Made by a program: the position numbers and the translations under genes
The notes under the pieces: model-generated
What the model was told of the DNA's origin: nothing
The model's database searches: none
Seen by the model: only the letters and a program-made list of their open reading frames with translations
In this document: positions 30,244 through 40,407 of the stretch, piece by piece
Position numbering within the stretch: position 1 is the first letter of the stretch
Layout of the letters: each line of letters starts with the position of its first letter
Assembly (NCBI GenBank): GCA_016789175.1
Contig: JAEURK010000336.1
Location: forward strand, 1 to 52,241
Direction of reading: 5' to 3'
DNA length: 52,241 bases
DNA from: Anaerolineales bacterium
GTDB lineage: Bacteria > Chloroflexota > Anaerolineae > Anaerolineales > UBA6663

Positions 30244-30322
30244 GCCCGGTGCGTGTGCCTCGCCTTCGACAAACCCTATACCCGTGATCGCCACCGGGTC
30301 GGACGCCTGCTAGAGTGTGGGC

Positions 30323-31774
30323 ATGCCAACCGCGATCTGGTGGATCCGGCGCGATCTGCGCCTCCACGACAATCCCGCACTGCTTGCCTCCCTAACCCAC
30401 GGCCGGGTTGTGCCCCTATTCATCCTGGACCCGGCCCTTTTGCAGGGTCGTCAACACATGGCCGCCCAACGCCGGCGAGACTTCCTGTTCAGCGCCCTGG
30501 CGTCGCTGAACGCAGACCTCGAGGCGCGAGGATCCCGGCTGACCATCCGCGTTGGCAAGCCGATCGAGGTCCTGCGCGATGTGTTGGCCGAAGCGGGCGC
30601 CGACGTGATCATCGCCGGCGAGGATTACGGCCCCTATGCTCGTCGCCGCGACGGCGAGATCCAGTCCCAACTTACCTTGCGACTCGTTGCCGGCCCGACG
30701 GTGCATCACCCCGAAGCGGTCAAGAAATCTGACGGCTCCCCGTACACGGTCTTCACACCCTTCAGCAAAGCCTGGTTGGCATTGCCACGCCCCGCTGGTG
30801 CTCCGGTGGCGACGCCGCCGACCCACATCCTCGGCCCAGACCGGGCCGTGGTCAGCGCACGGCTGCCCGAAGCGGCCGCGCCGGCCGGGTTCCCGGCCAC
30901 TGAGAATGAAGCCCGACGACGGCTGACCCTTTTTGCAACCGGTTCAGACGCGGCGATCGACGCCTATCGGGCACGGCGCGACCTCCTGGCGGCCGCCGGG
31001 ACGTCGACCCTATCGCCCTATCTGCGGTTCGGCCTGGTGTCTGCCACCGAGGCTGCAGCCCTGGCGACGCGCCGGATGACGACCGCGTCGACGCCCACGG
31101 CCTCTCAGGGCGCAGCCACCTGGCTCAACGAACTGATCTGGCGTGAGTTCTACCAGAGCATCCTGTTTCATTTCCCGAATGTGCTGCAGACCGCCTTCAA
31201 CCCGGCCCTGCGCAGCATCGCCTGGCGCGATGACCCGGAGGGCCTGGCGGCCTGGCAACTCGGTCGCACCGGTGTGCCGGTTGTCGACGCCGCCATGCGC
31301 CAATTGAATACCACCGGTTGGATGCATAACCGCGCCCGAATGATCGTCGCCTCGTTCCTGGTAAAGGATCTCTTGATTGATTGGCGCCAGGGCGAGCAAT
31401 GGTTCATGGATCGGTTGGTCGACGGCGATCCAGCCGCCAACAACGGAGGCTGGCAGTGGACGGCCGGGGTGGGCACCGACGCCGCCCCGTACTTCCGGAT
31501 CTTCAACCCGATCCTGCAAAGCAGGAAGTTCGACCCAACTGGAGACTACATCCGGCGATTCGTGCCGGAGCTGGCGGCCTTGCCCGATGCGCACATCCAT
31601 GACCCTGCGGCTCTGACACCGATCGAACTGGGCGGCTATGGCGTGATCCTGGGCGAGACCTATCCCGCCCCGATCGTCGATCGGGCCCAGGCGCGGGCGC
31701 GCACCCTGGCCGCATACCAGGCCGCCCGAACGCGGTTCGACCACGAGCGCATGGATCGATCACCGGCGCCCTGA
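30323..31774 (+). CDS. Deoxyribodipyrimidine photolyase, class I
   Basis: This enzyme repairs UV-induced cyclobutane dimers in DNA using light, with FADH- and an antenna chromophore. The N-terminal Rossmann domain starts AIWWIRRDLRLHDNPAL. The FAD domain contains LSPYLRFGLVSATEAA, WLNELIWREFYQSILFHFP, GRTGVPVVDAAMRQLNTTGWMHNRARM, and the NNGGWQWTAGVGTDAAPYFRIFNP signature. The product is about 483 aa, as expected. The ATG at 30323 is preferred over a GTG two codons upstream. It lies 5 kb from the B12/MerR regulator, but I see no operator-like repeats in front of it. Confidence 0.94.
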   Translation: MPTAIWWIRRDLRLHDNPALLASLTHGRVVPLFILDPALLQGRQHMAAQRRRDFLFSALASLNADLEARGSRLTIRVGKPIEVLRDVLAEAGADVIIAGEDYGPYARRRDGEIQSQLTLRLVAGPTVHHPEAVKKSDGSPYTVFTPFSKAWLALPRPAGAPVATPPTHILGPDRAVVSARLPEAAAPAGFPATENEARRRLTLFATGSDAAIDAYRARRDLLAAAGTSTLSPYLRFGLVSATEAAALATRRMTTASTPTASQGAATWLNELIWREFYQSILFHFPNVLQTAFNPALRSIAWRDDPEGLAAWQLGRTGVPVVDAAMRQLNTTGWMHNRARMIVASFLVKDLLIDWRQGEQWFMDRLVDGDPAANNGGWQWTAGVGTDAAPYFRIFNPILQSRKFDPTGDYIRRFVPELAALPDAHIHDPAALTPIELGGYGVILGETYPAPIVDRAQARARTLAAYQAARTRFDHERMDRSPAP

Positions 31775-34900: not shown

Positions 34901-36397
34901 CTAGCGAACCGCGCCGTGCACCAACGGCACGGTTCGTTTTTCGGCGCCGGCCAGGATCGCGCCGGCGACGCGCAATGCGCCCAACGTCACACTGGCCGTG
35001 GATTGGCCCGGGAAGATCGAGTCGCCGACCAACCACAATCCGCGCACACCGGTGCCCGGGCCGCGGGCGGACCAGAGCGAGGTCTGAGCGAAGCCGCCGA
35101 CCATGCCCCCGGGCCGCCCGGTGAACCGCTCGAACGTGGCCGGGCTGGCCGTCAACCGGAAGCGGATCGCCTGCGCCAGCTCGGGCAAAGCGCGCGTCGC
35201 GCCCTGGATCATTCGTTGGCTGTACCGATCCTTCTGGCGTTGGTACTCGCCCGGGTCCTCACGCTTGAGTCGTACCCACGGCGCGATCGCGGTGTGTGTG
35301 GAGAGCGTCACGGCGCGCGCGCCGGTCGGCGCGCGCCCGGTCTCACCCGGCCCGGAGACCGAGATGAAGATCGAGTTGCCTTCGCCGAGTGGTCGACCCG
35401 GATCGACAACCACCTGATGATGACCGGGCGTCCCGGCAACGGCGGTCTCGGCCACGCCAAGATACACCATGAACGCGCCCCAGGTCGGCGCCCGGAGGTC
35501 TGTCTCGCGGATCAGGCCGGCCGGCGCGGCATCACCCAGCAGACGCGCCAGAGCCCACGGCGTGAGGTTACCGATGACGACATCGGCTTCGGCGGTCAGG
35601 CCCCGGATCGTCTGCACGCCAATTGCCCGACCGTTGCGAACCAGGATAGACGCGACCCGCTGGCGAGTCAGCACCTGCGCCCCGCGTTTGCGCAACCAGT
35701 TCACCAACGTCGCCGCCAGGCCCCCAACACCACCCTGCACCTGATTCACGCCCCGGCGCGGCAGGTCGAGCGCGGCGCTGCCATAGAGTGCGTTGGCGTG
35801 AGCGGCCGTCGTCTGGGCCGAGATCAGGAGCTGCGAGTCGAGGAAAGCACGCAGGGCCGGGTCGCGCCAGGCCGGTCCGGCCAGGTCGCGCACGGTTCGA
35901 AAGGCCTGAGGCGCAGCCGCGATCACATCCGGGCGCACCGCCCGCGCCAGGCGGATCCAGTCCTCCAGTGACTCCGGCGGCCACGGCAGCCCGCGCGCAC
36001 TGAGCGACCAGGCCGTCGCGGCCAGACGCTCTTGCGCCAACCAGAAGGCCTCGGCGCCCGTGAACGCGGCCCGCCGCTCGTCGTGCCAGGCTGGGCGGCT
36101 CGCCCATTGCGTGATGGCGCGATCCGGCAGATGTGTCACCCAGGCCGGGTCGACCCGCTCGACCGGCCAGCTGAGGCCAAGCAGCGCCCCGAGGCGCTCG
36201 TGCGGGCCACCGGGGTCGAAGCCCCCCACCAGAGTAGCGCCGGCGTCAAAGCGGTAATCGCGGTGAAAGAACGTGCCGGCGCACCCGCCGGGATAGACGT
36301 GGGCCTCGAGCACTGTCACGTCCCAGCCGGCCTGCGCCAGGAGCGCCGCCGCCGACAACCCGCCGATCCCGGCCCCGATCACGACCGCCGAGGGCAT
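34901..36397 (-). CDS. Phytoene desaturase/carotenoid isomerase-family FAD oxidoreductase
   Basis: The 498-aa protein begins with the FAD dinucleotide loop VVIGAGIGGLSAAALLAQAG followed by VLEAHVYPGGCAGTF, the CrtI-family opening. The middle has QVQGGVGGLAATLVNWLRKRGAQVLT, and the C-terminus has WLVGDSIFPGQSTASVTLGALRVAGAI, closer to carotenoid isomerases (CrtISO) and CrtD-type desaturases than to classic phytoene desaturase. It is co-transcribed with the SRPBCC gene (2 bp gap) and lies beside a B12/MerR photoreceptor-type regulator, which supports a carotenoid or other light-linked isoprenoid role. No phytoene synthase is in the window, so the substrate is open. Confidence 0.85.
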   Translation of the reverse strand: MPSAVVIGAGIGGLSAAALLAQAGWDVTVLEAHVYPGGCAGTFFHRDYRFDAGATLVGGFDPGGPHERLGALLGLSWPVERVDPAWVTHLPDRAITQWASRPAWHDERRAAFTGAEAFWLAQERLAATAWSLSARGLPWPPESLEDWIRLARAVRPDVIAAAPQAFRTVRDLAGPAWRDPALRAFLDSQLLISAQTTAAHANALYGSAALDLPRRGVNQVQGGVGGLAATLVNWLRKRGAQVLTRQRVASILVRNGRAIGVQTIRGLTAEADVVIGNLTPWALARLLGDAAPAGLIRETDLRAPTWGAFMVYLGVAETAVAGTPGHHQVVVDPGRPLGEGNSIFISVSGPGETGRAPTGARAVTLSTHTAIAPWVRLKREDPGEYQRQKDRYSQRMIQGATRALPELAQAIRFRLTASPATFERFTGRPGGMVGGFAQTSLWSARGPGTGVRGLWLVGDSIFPGQSTASVTLGALRVAGAILAGAEKRTVPLVHGAVR

Positions 36398-36399
36398 GG

Positions 36400-36876
36400 T
36401 CAGGCCGCACCCTGCGCGGGTCGGCGGTTCAGCGCGCGGCGTGTGGCCCACCGCCGATAGGCAAACAGCAACCACAGGCCCGGCGGATTGAACAGCAACC
36501 GGCTGAACCACCCGCGCGGGCCTGGGTGATAGGCATACGCGATGTGCTCGTGAACTGCGGTGCGGTCGGCCGCGAGGGCTGTGAAGCGATGCGTATGTTG
36601 CCAACGCTGCATTGGGCTCCGAACCGCCGTATCGCGAAAGCCCGTCAGCGGTTCGACCCGGTCATGCACGGCTGTCCATGCCACCGGGATCGGGCCGAAC
36701 CACATGGTCATGTCGACCCGCGAACCCTCGGCCAGGGCTTCGGCCCGGTGGAGTTGGATAAAGATCGGTGGCGGGGTCAGGCGCGGCAAGGCTTTTGCGT
36801 CACGGTGAAATGCAGCAACCGCGCTCAGCGGTGCGGCGACCTCGAAGTGAAAGGTGAAAGTAGGCATCTCCGGCAT
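36400..36876 (-). CDS. SRPBCC (START-like) family protein
   Basis: The product of about 158 aa starts with FTFHFEVAAPLSAVAAFHRD, then PRLTPPPIFIQLH, TMWFGPIPVAWTAVHDRVEP, FRDTAVRSPMQRWQHTHRF and AYHPGPRGWFSRLLFNPPGLWLLFAYR. This is the hydrophobic-cavity SRPBCC fold usually binding lipids. A start three codons later (36867) is possible. The stop is 2 bp before the oxidoreductase start, so the pair is an operon. Two TTGTACA-type half-sites with 11-bp spacing lie 20 bp upstream of the start codon, suggesting control by the adjacent MerR/B12 protein. Confidence 0.82.
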   Translation of the reverse strand: MPEMPTFTFHFEVAAPLSAVAAFHRDAKALPRLTPPPIFIQLHRAEALAEGSRVDMTMWFGPIPVAWTAVHDRVEPLTGFRDTAVRSPMQRWQHTHRFTALAADRTAVHEHIAYAYHPGPRGWFSRLLFNPPGLWLLFAYRRWATRRALNRRPAQGAA

Positions 36877-36895
36877 CGTAGCAAACCGCCGGGAC

Positions 36896-36913
36896 TCTAC
36901 AAGGCTTGTACAA
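36896..36913 (-). promoter_or_regulatory. Putative CarH-type operator before the SRPBCC operon
   Basis: On the minus strand TTGTACA (36913-36907) is followed exactly 11 bp later by TTGTAGA (36902-36896). The first matches nTnTACAn, the half-site I recall for the Thermus CarH photoreceptor, which binds direct repeats of 11 bp. No convincing -35/-10 pair overlaps them. Confidence 0.5.
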
Positions 36914-36966
36914 AGCAAGCCGACAGCGGGGCCCGCTTTTCCGCGAGATTCGAGATGAGGATTGAA

Positions 36967-36990
36967 TGAGCGCGTGTCGCAGCGCGCTCA
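36967..36990 (-). terminator. Hairpin at the end of the MerR/B12 regulator gene
   Basis: TGAGCGCG (36967-36974) and CGCGCTCA (36983-36990) form a perfect 8-bp stem overlapping the regulator stop codon. It may separate the regulator from the SRPBCC operon downstream; no T tract is seen. Confidence 0.4.
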
Positions 36991-37974
36991 GGCGCCCAAG
37001 AGCTGCCGAACGCGGGTGACCCCGGCCGAGAGGGTGTCGCCTAGATAGACTCCGGGCACCGATTCGCGCAGCGAAGGGCTGATAATGCAGGCCCGCCCGC
37101 CGAAACCGAACTTCGGTTTGGGCCGCATCGCGTTGAGGCCGACATGGACTCGCTGCAACTCGTGCGCCGACTGTAGCGAGTTCGCGGTCAGGATCACCAT
37201 CGCCGGGCGCTCGATGCGCGTGTAGTCAAGCAGGTCGTCGACGTTGACATCCTGACCCAGGTACTCGACCCGGTAGCCTTCGCGGCGGAGAAAGATCGAA
37301 AGGATCAGGGCCGGGATCTCATGCAACTCGCCCGGGGCGCAGCCGATGATGATCCGGCTGTGGAGGCGGCCATGCGGCATCTGCTGGTAATACGTCATCA
37401 AACGACCGCGCAAGTAGCTGCTGGCGAAGTGCTCGGTCGCGATCCGGATCCGGCCGGCAGACCAGGCGTCGCCGATCTTGTGCAGACAGGGCGTGATGAC
37501 GTCGTTGCACACGGCGACGATATCGTACTGCCCGATCACGTCATTTATGATCAGGTTCGCAGACTGCTCGTCGTGCCGGAGCAGGACCTCGTACAGACGC
37601 GTGGCGTAGCCGTCCGGAGCGGAACCCGGCAGGCGCGTGATCGGCGCCTGCGGCGTTGCCACGATGGCGGGCCACAGCCCGGCCCGACGCAGATCGAGCA
37701 ACTCGCCGGCCGCCGTGCTGATCGATTGGCCGCTGTCGACGCGCGACTTGAGCCAATGCAGGATCGCGACATCACGCTCGGAATACAGGCGATAGTTGCT
37801 GCGGGTCCGATGCGGCACAAGCAACTGGTAGCGGCGCTCCCAGGCTCGCAATGTCACGGGCCGGATGCCGACTTCGCCGCAGACGGTTTTGATACTGAAC
37901 TTTGGCACATCCGGCAGGTCGCCGATGTTGGTCTTGGCTTCGACCGCCTCCGGGGCGGAAAGTGGTTGTATCAT
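36988..37974 (-). CDS. MerR-type regulator with B12-binding domain (CarH/LitR-like)
   Basis: The 328-aa protein has a MerR helix-turn-helix (about 24-95: KTVCGEVGIRPVTLRAWERRYQ, RLYSERDVAILHWLK), a four-helix cap and a Rossmann-like cobalamin domain. The cap shows the W-x9-E-H motif of CarH (Trp171, Glu181, His182), which shields the adenosyl group. His218 in the GELHE loop is the likely lower cobalt ligand, 36 residues after His182, much as in Thermus CarH. Such proteins are tetrameric repressors in the dark and release DNA in light. The ATG at 37974 is chosen because the promoter at 38047-38020 would start transcription below the GTG at 38019. The carotenoid-type operon is downstream and a histidine kinase is divergent. 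Confidence 0.9.
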   Translation of the reverse strand: MIQPLSAPEAVEAKTNIGDLPDVPKFSIKTVCGEVGIRPVTLRAWERRYQLLVPHRTRSNYRLYSERDVAILHWLKSRVDSGQSISTAAGELLDLRRAGLWPAIVATPQAPITRLPGSAPDGYATRLYEVLLRHDEQSANLIINDVIGQYDIVAVCNDVITPCLHKIGDAWSAGRIRIATEHFASSYLRGRLMTYYQQMPHGRLHSRIIIGCAPGELHEIPALILSIFLRREGYRVEYLGQDVNVDDLLDYTRIERPAMVILTANSLQSAHELQRVHVGLNAMRPKPKFGFGGRACIISPSLRESVPGVYLGDTLSAGVTRVRQLLGA

Positions 37975-38019
37975 CGCACTGCTCTGGGAACGGGCGGCCA
38001 ATTGCTGTGCCGCCCGCAC

Positions 38020-38047
38020 ATAAAATGCATCTTGTCCAAGCTGTCAA
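38020..38047 (-). promoter_or_regulatory. Promoter of the MerR/B12 regulator gene
   Basis: On the minus strand a perfect TTGACA (38047-38042) and TTTTAT (38025-38020) are 16 bp apart. Transcription would start near 38013, about 40 bases before the ATG at 37974. Confidence 0.5.
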
Positions 38048-38073
38048 GTCATTGTACACCCTTTGTGCAATGC
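38041..38073 (+). promoter_or_regulatory. Putative CarH-type operator with 11-bp direct repeats
   Basis: TTGTACA (38052-38058) and TTGTGCA (38063-38069) are exactly 11 bp apart, and a weaker CTGTCAA (38041-38047) sits 11 bp before the first. The weak copy is the complement of the regulator's own -35 box, so binding would block it. The inner part also reads as the inverted repeat ATTGTACA/TGTGCAAT. This fits autoregulation by a CarH-like repressor; it also lies upstream of the divergent kinase gene. Confidence 0.55.
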
Positions 38074-38101
38074 TCGACAACGGGACCCGGGTACATCTTG
38101 C

Positions 38102-39721
38102 ATGCCTGAACCCATCTTTCTCGACGCTGGCCACGCCTGGGAGGGGTTGCGCGAGATCGCGCGGTCGCTCTCGGGCGCTCACGACCTCGGCACGACCCTT
38201 GACCTGATTGCAGCCAAGACCGCGCAGGTCCTTGGGGTCGACTCGTGTTCGATCTATCTGCTGGATGACGAAACCCTCTGGCTGCGCGCCTCGACCGGCC
38301 TCTCACGCCAGGCGGTCGGACGCGGCTCACTTCAGATCGGCGAGGGACTGACCGGTTGGGCGGCCGCCAACAATCAGCCGGTGGCTGTCGCGGATGCCCA
38401 GACCGATCCGCGCTTCAAATTCGTGCCCTACACCGGTGAGCGTGCCTTCCATTCGCTCCTGGCTGTCCCCCTGGTCTCTGAAGGGCGCGTGACCGGAGCC
38501 ATGAACGTCCAGACCTATGCGGCGCACGCCTTCACCGGGCCCGAGATCGGGCTGCTCAGCCTGATCGCCGATCTGGCGGCGGGTGTGCTCAAGCGGGCCA
38601 GCCTGACCGATAACCTCAACCGCCAGCTGGCCGAGCTCAAGACGCTCGCCCGCGTCAGTCAGACCATCAACCAGCCGCTGTATCTCGATGACATGCTCAA
38701 CGTGGTCGTCGAGATGGCCGCCAAGGTCATGGGCGCCGCGGTCTGCACGCTGCGCCTGGTCGACGAGGCGCAGGAGGGGTTGGTGGTGCGGGCTGCGGCC
38801 ACCCGGATCGAGGGCTACGAGCCCAAGCCGGCCCTGCGCCTGGACGAAGGCATCAACGGCCTGGTGCTGAGCGAGCGCAAGCCTTACACGGTGCTCGACG
38901 TCCGCACAGACCCGCGTTTTCCGTTTCGCGAAGCTGCCCAACGCGAGGGCCTGGTCAGCATGCTGGCCGTGCCCCTGATCGTGCGCGACCGCGCGATCGG
39001 CGTGCTCAATGCCTTTACCACGCAGACCCATGTGTACACCGAGGCCGAGATCGGTCTGCTCTCGACCCTGGCCAACCAGACGGCGTTAGCGATCGAGAAC
39101 GCGCAGCTCGTCACCAGCGCCTCCATCGTGCGCGAGATGCACCACCGCGTCCGAAATAACCTGCAGCAAGTGGCGATGCTGCTTCGCCTGCAGGCCCAAC
39201 AGTCGGGCGATTCGAAAGGGCACCTGCAGATCGCGGTCAACCGCGTCCAGGCGATCGCGGCCGTCCACGAGGTGCTGGCCCAGGAAGGCTACCGGCTCGT
39301 CAACGTGCGCGAAGTCGCCGACCGGATCGTGCGGCTGCGCGGCCAGCACCTATCGCAGCCCAACCTGAGCGTGCAGGTGCAGGTCGACGGCGAAGACGTG
39401 TTGCTGCCCTCGCGCGCGGCCACGTCGCTAGCCCTGGTGATCAATGAGCTGCTGGAGAACGCCATGGAGCATGCCTTCAGCGGCCGGACGGAGGGCCGGG
39501 TACGGATCCACTGTGCCCAGGCGGGCGGTGATTATCGAATCGACGTGACCGATGACGGCGTGGGGATGCCGGTCAAACCGATCGACAGCCTGGGGCTGGA
39601 GATCGTCACGGCCCTGGTGCGCGATGACTTGCACGGCACCTTGAGCTTCCAGTCCCCCATCGGCGGCGGCACCCAGGCGATCGTCCAGCTCCCACGCCCG
39701 GCGCAGTTGGATCTCGAGTAG
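38102..39721 (+). CDS. GAF-GAF histidine kinase, HisKA_2 type
   Basis: The 539-aa soluble kinase has two GAF domains (about 25-165 and 185-330), then a HisKA_2 dimerisation helix VREMHHRVRNNLQQVAML with the phospho-acceptor at His347/348, and an HATPase domain (ALVINELLENAMEHAF, DDGVGMPVKPIDSLGLEIV). This is the PdtaS/EutW class, whose partners are ANTAR response regulators, and such a gene follows 110 bp downstream. The start at 38102 (MPEPIF) follows the divergent promoter region shared with the MerR/B12 gene; an upstream in-frame start lies inside the operator. Confidence 0.9.
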   Translation: MPEPIFLDAGHAWEGLREIARSLSGAHDLGTTLDLIAAKTAQVLGVDSCSIYLLDDETLWLRASTGLSRQAVGRGSLQIGEGLTGWAAANNQPVAVADAQTDPRFKFVPYTGERAFHSLLAVPLVSEGRVTGAMNVQTYAAHAFTGPEIGLLSLIADLAAGVLKRASLTDNLNRQLAELKTLARVSQTINQPLYLDDMLNVVVEMAAKVMGAAVCTLRLVDEAQEGLVVRAAATRIEGYEPKPALRLDEGINGLVLSERKPYTVLDVRTDPRFPFREAAQREGLVSMLAVPLIVRDRAIGVLNAFTTQTHVYTEAEIGLLSTLANQTALAIENAQLVTSASIVREMHHRVRNNLQQVAMLLRLQAQQSGDSKGHLQIAVNRVQAIAAVHEVLAQEGYRLVNVREVADRIVRLRGQHLSQPNLSVQVQVDGEDVLLPSRAATSLALVINELLENAMEHAFSGRTEGRVRIHCAQAGGDYRIDVTDDGVGMPVKPIDSLGLEIVTALVRDDLHGTLSFQSPIGGGTQAIVQLPRPAQLDLE

Positions 39722-39831: not shown

Positions 39832-40407
39832 TTGGACAAACTACGCATTCTGGTTGCCGACGACGAAGCCATCATCCGCCTGGGTTTGCGCGGCATGCTG
39901 GCGCAGATGGGCCATGAGGTCCTGCTGGCGGCCGACGGGCGTGAAGCTCTCAACATCGCCCGCACGTCACGGCCGGACCTGGCGCTGCTCGACATCCGCA
40001 TGCCGCAGGTGGACGGCCTCGACGTCGCGCGCGCGCTGAACGAGCGCCAGCCGATGCCCATCATCTTCCTGACCGCGTACAGCGAACAGGATCTGATTGC
40101 CGAAGCGGCCGAGCTCAAGGTCCAGAACTATCTGATCAAACCGGTCGACGAGCGCGACCTGGTGGCCGCTATCCCGATCGCGGTCGCCAAGTTCCGCGAG
40201 GGCCAGGCCGCTCAAAACCGGATCGATGAACTCGAAGAGACGATCGAGACGCGCAAGCTGGTCGACCGCGCGAAAGGCATCCTGATGCAGGCCGGGTCGA
40301 GCGAGGATCAGGCCTATCACACCCTGCAGAAGCGGGCCCGCGACGAGCGCATCTCAATGCGGCAGGTGGCCGAAGACATCCTGCGCAAGGCCGGGCGCCT
40401 CAAGTAA
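39832..40407 (+). CDS. ANTAR-domain response regulator (PdtaR-like)
   Basis: The 191-aa protein joins a receiver (ILVADDEAIIRLGLRGML; phospho-acceptor Asp54 in LALLDIRMP; LTAYSEQD; YLIKPVDE) to an ANTAR domain (about 135-190: ETRKLVDRAKGILMQAGSSEDQAYHTLQKRARDERISMRQVAEDIL). ANTAR proteins bind paired hexaloop hairpins in mRNA leaders and prevent termination. The TTG at 39832 is chosen because GAGGTG lies five bases upstream; a GTG at 39787 is an alternative but lies before a possible promoter (TTGTCC-N18-CACAAT, ending 39796). The HAD gene follows after 11 bp. Confidence 0.9.
   Translation: MDKLRILVADDEAIIRLGLRGMLAQMGHEVLLAADGREALNIARTSRPDLALLDIRMPQVDGLDVARALNERQPMPIIFLTAYSEQDLIAEAAELKVQNYLIKPVDERDLVAAIPIAVAKFREGQAAQNRIDELEETIETRKLVDRAKGILMQAGSSEDQAYHTLQKRARDERISMRQVAEDILRKAGRLK

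Follow-up and report, generated by a model that had tools for sequence, protein, structure and literature searches.

Does the MerR-type regulator encoded on a 52,241-base stretch of Anaerolineales DNA (contig JAEURK010000336.1, all of it hereafter the window) act as a light-released repressor of the CarH/LitR family, and which genes would it control? An original prediction, made from the sequence of the stretch, had proposed a B12 photoreceptor that controls itself and an adjoining oxidoreductase operon through 11-base-pair (bp) repeats in a Chloroflexota-like organism. The host agrees, the nearest named record being Anaerolineales bacterium UBA6663. We examined the locus in the window genome (G000; 5.6 Mb, 94% complete), in a sister species (G001) and in further relatives numbered in the same way. 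With a probability that we put at roughly 0.8, our analysis suggests that the regulator is an adenosylcobalamin (AdoCbl)-dependent, light-released repressor of its own gene, carH, and of a neighbouring pair encoding an SRPBCC protein and a CrtD-like oxidoreductase. The features on which the argument turns are these.

36988..37974, minus strand: CarH/LitR-type regulator, 328 amino acids, ATG at 37974, with a MerR DNA-binding domain, a helical B12-binding_2 domain and a B12-binding Rossmann domain
38042..38069, minus strand: carH operator, TnnACA repeated three times in the same direction every 11 bp, with 27 of its 28 bases matched in the sister
38020..38047, minus strand: predicted carH promoter, -35 TTGACA (38047-38042), weak -10 TTTTAT, 16-bp spacing
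36896..36912, plus strand: second candidate operator, TCTACA and TGTACA spaced 11 bp apart, a variant being present at the same place in the sister
36875..36902, minus strand: predicted SRPBCC promoter, -35 TTGTAG (36902-36897) within the operator, -10 TACGAT (36880-36875), 16-bp spacing
36400..36867, minus strand: SRPBCC (helix-grip) protein, 155 amino acids, putative start ATG 36867 (MPTF...)
34901..36397, minus strand: CrtD/CrtI-type FAD-dependent, carotenoid desaturase-like oxidoreductase, named from NCBIfam scores

Membership of the regulator in the CarH/LitR family, MerR-B12 type, is well supported. Its longest open reading frame (ORF) covers 36988-38019 on the minus strand and opens with GTG 38019; we took ATG 37974, residue 16 of that frame, as the start, because the predicted -10 implies a start site that coincides with the GTG or lies downstream of it, and because MIQP is conserved in the sister. 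Pfam MerR_1, B12-binding_2 and B12-binding all exceed their cut-offs. Counted from ATG 37974, Trp171, Glu181, His182 (the Wx9EH motif) and His218 are all present, as had been predicted, and the four are invariant across an alignment of 20 relatives. The equivalent Thermus residues (W131, E141, H142 and the lower-ligand H177), whose cobalamin role is described in the excerpts of PMC11796333 used here, are kept in 27 of 29 aligned rows, Thermus CarH included; the two rows without them are a peroxiredoxin fusion (G056b) and a faulty Exiguobacterium row. Thermus CarH/LitR leads the sequence matches among PDB structures. An AlphaFold model built with 20 sequences has a mean predicted local distance difference test (pLDDT) score of 85.5, and its B12 half superimposes on CarH 5c8e with a Z of 24.1 and a root-mean-square deviation of 2.0 over 199 residues. 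Over residues ~117-326 the model matches photocobilins at Z 25 and Thermus CarH at Z 24, a tie within about 1 Z. It is the sole full CarH-type gene found in the window genome, where two further matches are weak and concern B12 domains, and that genome also carries two genes for ATP:cob(I)alamin adenosyltransferase.

We then asked whether the carH promoter carries an operator of the kind known for CarH. The published CarH repeat, nnnnTnnACAn (PMC9304148, in excerpt), served as a pattern more independent of the finding than one modelled on the repeats named in the original prediction. On the minus strand the promoter holds TGCACA (38069-38064), TGTACA (38058-38053) and TTGACA (38047-38042), with five bases between neighbours, and the third repeat doubles as the predicted -35 box of carH. 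TTGTACA and TTGTGCA, placed by the original prediction at 38052 and 38063, both lie there. The 11-bp spacing stood as well, but the perfect reading is found on the minus strand only and comprises three copies; likewise, the copy described as weaker does overlap TTGACA, but it is a full TnnACA match. Three tandem TnnACA copies occur once in the window and in none of 100 shuffles. Genome-wide, in a search of eight genomes, the triple was found once in G000 and once in the sister, both times at carH, and the same pattern read backwards gave no match in any of the eight.

The array is also conserved in the sister, which is syntenic with the window from the photolyase gene through a phosphatase gene. 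Against the 27 of 28 operator bases shared, the aligned intergenic positions outside a perfect block of 24 bases are identical at 51 of 101. No counterpart of the -10 TTTTAT was seen in the sister sequence.

The second candidate site overlaps the predicted -35 of the SRPBCC/CrtD-like pair. Here the two minus-strand repeats at 36913 and 36902 are where the original prediction put them, 11 bp apart, but the perfect reading is TCTACA/TGTACA on the plus strand. A stricter pair of TNTACA repeats matched once in the window and never in 100 shuffles. In the sister, the corresponding place holds TATACA/TCTACA, read on the minus strand and equally far from TACGAT, and the sister genome has no other exact match to TTNTACA-N4-TTNTACA. 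That longer pattern, allowed one mismatch, gave three matches at two sites in the window, at carH and at SRPBCC, compared with a mean of 0.00 in 100 dinucleotide shuffles; it was built on the repeats first noticed here, so its shuffle test is partly circular. Searched in four genomes with up to one mismatch, it also found C280:774 (exact), C38:3338 and C155:5840 in the window genome, and its backwards control gave five matches (0, 2, 2 and 1); single matches to it are therefore weak. We did not count the C280 match (774-791) as a CarH site, since it overlaps a TATAAT-like -10. This element, TTATACA-N4-TTnTAC, is conserved upstream of a LysM-type gene in the sister too (G000:C280:774-791 and G001:C389:12834-12851) and may be a plain promoter.

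Together, the repeats on predicted promoters and their conservation in the sister support the predicted 11-bp operator scheme, in which the regulator controls its own gene and has a site upstream of the oxidoreductase pair. For the cofactor, the oligomer, the light response, repression, the pigment role and kinase control, what we infer comes from the family. In the dark, AdoCbl would be held by the helix bundle bearing W171, E181 and H182 and by H218, and the protein would oligomerise. The oligomer would occupy the three repeats containing the carH -35 and the two containing that of the SRPBCC/CrtD-like pair, excluding RNA polymerase from both promoters. Light would break the cobalt-carbon bond and disassemble the oligomer, so that carH and the SRPBCC/CrtD-like genes would be expressed; the pair would probably alter a carotenoid-type pigment. 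The regulon is probably small.

Several observations weigh against this reading. On the protein side, the narrow NCBIfam 'CarH repressor' equivalog NF052513 scored 129.6 bits against a cut-off of 400. At the position of Thermus R176, a salt-bridge and interface residue of the CarH tetramer, the window protein and those of the sister, G003 and G004a carry Leu; the oligomer may therefore differ from that of Thermus. The crtB/crtI genes of the window genome lie on a separate contig, C423, and no array was found there. As for the operator, G002 (one) and G010 (three) have exact TnnACA triples at places other than carH, so the exact triple alone is no proof. Inspection of the surrounding ORFs by eye showed no light- or pigment-type gene, and we regard these triples as due to chance or of unknown function; one of them precedes a sigma-factor-like ORF.

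Conservation beyond the sister also tells against it. We scanned upstream of each CarH-type gene for the best three-repeat match, scored out of 12, at spacings of 7-16. In 50 upstream regions, nearly all from Bacilli (loci L009 and L011-L083), 25 reached at least 11/12 at spacing 11, eight at spacing 9, one at spacing 16 and none at spacings 7, 8, 10 or 12-15; the scan works as a method, since these scores peak at 11. Among 40 Anaerolineales regions, one a cut fragment (L158), four reached 11/12 at spacing 11, the window and its sister among them; every other spacing from 7 to 16 gave at most one region at that score. In the window's own CarH clade, 10 of 12 tree rows (G003, G004a, G046, G058, G054, G030, G056a, HGW-8, Ardenticatenales and UBA3924 being the ten) score 6-8/12 upstream of their own carH. 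The expectation that the repeats would recur in relatives thus holds for the sister species but not for most of the clade. In G004 (carH2) and G010, the carH gene of the other type is preceded by two full repeats at 11 bp.

In a rival account the carH array alone is a real operator, serving autoregulation, and the SRPBCC site is a promoter-like coincidence. That site has two repeats, with no third seen, in an orientation unlike the sister's, and G003 showed no comparable site upstream of its SRPBCC gene; moreover, about one to two TnnACA pairs are expected per window (an estimate from eight fixed bases, 52 kb and two strands). The stricter TNTACA pair and the sister's exact match at an equal distance from TACGAT speak against coincidence, and CarH is reported to bind operators in which one or two repeats are complete (PMC9304148, in excerpt). 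On balance we think it unlikely that the second site is accidental.

About equally improbable, in our judgement, is that the protein binds B12 and the repeats but senses the B12 level or redox state, with light irrelevant in a largely dark habitat. Many Anaerolineales live in the dark, and the window organism is their kin. Peroxiredoxin-type genes lie beside carH in some relatives, and in one genus a peroxiredoxin replaces the B12 part. Against this, the protein retains every residue linked to AdoCbl binding and photochemistry, and the neighbours are of the usual light-protection kind, with a carotenoid-type desaturase alongside and a photolyase some kilobases off. A B12-independent repressor of CarA type that needs an antirepressor, as the carA/carH pair of Myxococcus and the tandem CarH-type paralogues of at least nine relatives might suggest, is most improbable, for CarA has lost Wx9EH (PMC9304148, in excerpt) while the window protein keeps it, and a single full CarH-type gene was found in a 94%-complete genome.

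Returning to the light-released repressor, we examined its putative targets and their surroundings. The SRPBCC start was placed at ATG 36867 because ATG 36876 overlaps the predicted -10 and the G003 relative begins with MPTF. By sequence, the protein matched Pfam Polyketide_cyc2 alone, at an E-value of 0.0012 and below the cut-off; its AlphaFold model (four sequences, pLDDT 89) matches helix-grip (Bet v 1-like) structures. The CrtD-like protein scored 341.8 bits with TIGR02733 desat_CrtD (cut-off 549.7) and 114.6 with crtI_fam (cut-off 238.1), below both thresholds; judged by these scores, it is a relative of carotenoid desaturases. Of 13 regions inspected, five (window, sister, G003, G004 and G010) have SRPBCC and CrtD-like genes in the vicinity of carH; in the other eight (G046, G058, G054, G030, G056, L005, L006 and L007), several of which are short, they were not found there. 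Elsewhere, a run of several CrtI/CrtD-like matches, fragments or paralogues, sits on one contig in both species (G000:C22:8317-11443 and G001:C266). In G004, which has tandem carH genes, a two-repeat CarH-type site lies upstream of crtI/crtB (C551:3807-3824, the same as L162:3807-3824).

The interval first proposed, 34901-38102, was too short, as it omits a divergent histidine kinase gene whose upstream region is the same DNA as that of carH. The further features of the window are as follows.

38102..39721, plus strand: divergent sensor kinase, GAF-GAF-HisKA_2-HATPase by Pfam, sharing the operator-bearing intergenic region
39832..40407, plus strand: response regulator with an ANTAR domain, downstream of the kinase, start guessed at TTG 39832
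30317..31774, plus strand: DNA photolyase of the cryptochrome/photolyase family, syntenic in the sister

The kinase gene is retained in the sister, divergent as in the window, and the carH array may also control the GAF kinase/ANTAR pair. No clear promoter for the kinase gene was seen by eye. In G003, a short match to the GAF kinase beside carH and the conserved phosphatase gene (L113:1872-2108) is probably a gene remnant. The photolyase gene was considered as a target and set aside, as the window scan gave no operator of the CarH kind before it.

Relatives of the window organism combine CarH-type genes with peroxiredoxin-like ones, as listed by locus.

L113:3338-3856, L114:4080-4574, L119:9915-10436, L181:10821-11339 and L184 (G098): UGA-containing peroxiredoxin-like genes (UxxC) beside a CarH-type gene
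L119:8999-9856 (G056), L181:9899-10750 (G019) and L184:1486-2442 (G098): MerR-peroxiredoxin fusions
L114:4598-6601: tandem CarH-type pair in G004

Between the CarH-type gene and SRPBCC, G003 and G004 carry a peroxiredoxin-like gene, identified as AhpC-TSA_2 in G004, whose first active-site codon reads UGA (RHFG-U-xFCREW). G056, G019 and G098 also have UGA at this codon, preceded by RHFG or RHYG, which makes five distinct loci; rows with one UGA, wherever in the gene it lies, were also obtained for G008, G046 and G199. Predicted folds show a hairpin with an AGUU loop about 20 bases past the UGA in G056, G019 and G098, and a weaker, similar one in G003 and G004. SelA is strong (best match 246-444 bits) in G004, G008, G019, G046, G056 and G098, hence in four of the five genomes with UGA loci. 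The exception is G003 (63% complete), where none was found, nor was any in G001; G000 has a 34.8-bit match, formally above the cut-off, and a weaker one. It is likely, from these sequence features, that the UGA encodes selenocysteine.

In 3 of the 301 genomes searched, all of one genus, a MerR domain of CarH type is joined to a peroxiredoxin-like (AhpC/TSA) domain with CxxC. By Pfam, the G056 protein contains both domains; for the G019 protein the sole match is MerR, at 0.001. In G019 the order is fusion gene, UGA gene, a transporter-like ORF and then SRPBCC/CrtD; the fusion occupies the place that carH has in other genomes, and no full carH was found in G019. This order was read in G019; the G056 contig ends soon after. 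The fusion promoters are weaker than that of the window, with one full repeat and near repeats (9-10/12), and no array precedes the full carH of G056 (best triple 8/12). No peroxiredoxin gene of this type was found in the window genome at an E-value of 1e-15. Tandem CarH-type genes about 1 kb apart occur in at least nine genomes (G004, G236, G244, G262, G276, G286, G292, G296 and G112), and in the two pairs whose motifs were read (G004 and G276) both partners retain Wx9EH.

These relatives hint at a redox-sensing twin of CarH. We tentatively suggest, as a possibility with the odds somewhat against it, that one CarH-type DNA-binding domain in Anaerolineales could be a platform for both a B12/light sensor (CarH) and a thiol-redox sensor (the peroxiredoxin fusion), both acting at 11-bp-repeat promoters beside UGA-encoded peroxiredoxin-like genes and controlling the same SRPBCC/CrtD-like pair. 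The suggestion is drawn from a gene fusion and gene order only, and the window organism would be a reduced case with the light branch alone.

If true, the proposed light control brings CarH-type regulation, with an operator that is easy to read, to an uncultured lineage of Anaerolineales, and its targets would include the SRPBCC and CrtD-like genes, a pair found next to the regulator in some relatives as well. The relatives in turn would offer a testable case of sensor swapping, with light (B12) or redox (peroxiredoxin) input to one DNA-binding domain. In those titles and abstract openings of the open-access literature that we saw, we found no treatment of a Chloroflexota CarH, an Anaerolineae peroxiredoxin selenoprotein or a MerR-peroxiredoxin fusion, and the main text of the SignatureFinder paper has no occurrence of 'chlorofle'.

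Among known systems, CarH/LitR of Thermus thermophilus HB8 (5c8d, 5c8e and 3whp) shares the domain order, the W, E, H and H residues and the fold of the B12 half. Its carH also carries three 11-bp TnnACA repeats (TGTACA, TTGACA and TATACA) with the -35 TTGACA inside one of them, but there it is the middle repeat and in the window the third. The window protein is 31.7% identical to Thermus CarH and differs from it at the R176 position, and the Thermus partners are phytoene/squalene synthase, phr and ldrP, whereas those of the window are the SRPBCC/CrtD-like pair and the divergent GAF kinase. The kinase and its ANTAR regulator resemble the PdtaS/PdtaR arrangement, in which a GAF and HisKA_2 kinase adjoins an ANTAR response regulator; unlike that type, the window kinase has two GAF domains and is divergent from the carH operator. 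The side-by-side CarA and CarH of Myxococcus xanthus are, like the tandem genes of Anaerolineales relatives, paralogues of one DNA-binding domain, but the window genome has a single copy, and one genus pairs CarH with a peroxiredoxin fusion, not with CarA. Finally, Bacillus megaterium and other Bacilli likewise have 11-bp repeat operators (the 25 of 50 regions found by the same scan), although CarHBm differs from the window in having four repeats and other oligomer transitions (PMC9304148, in excerpt).

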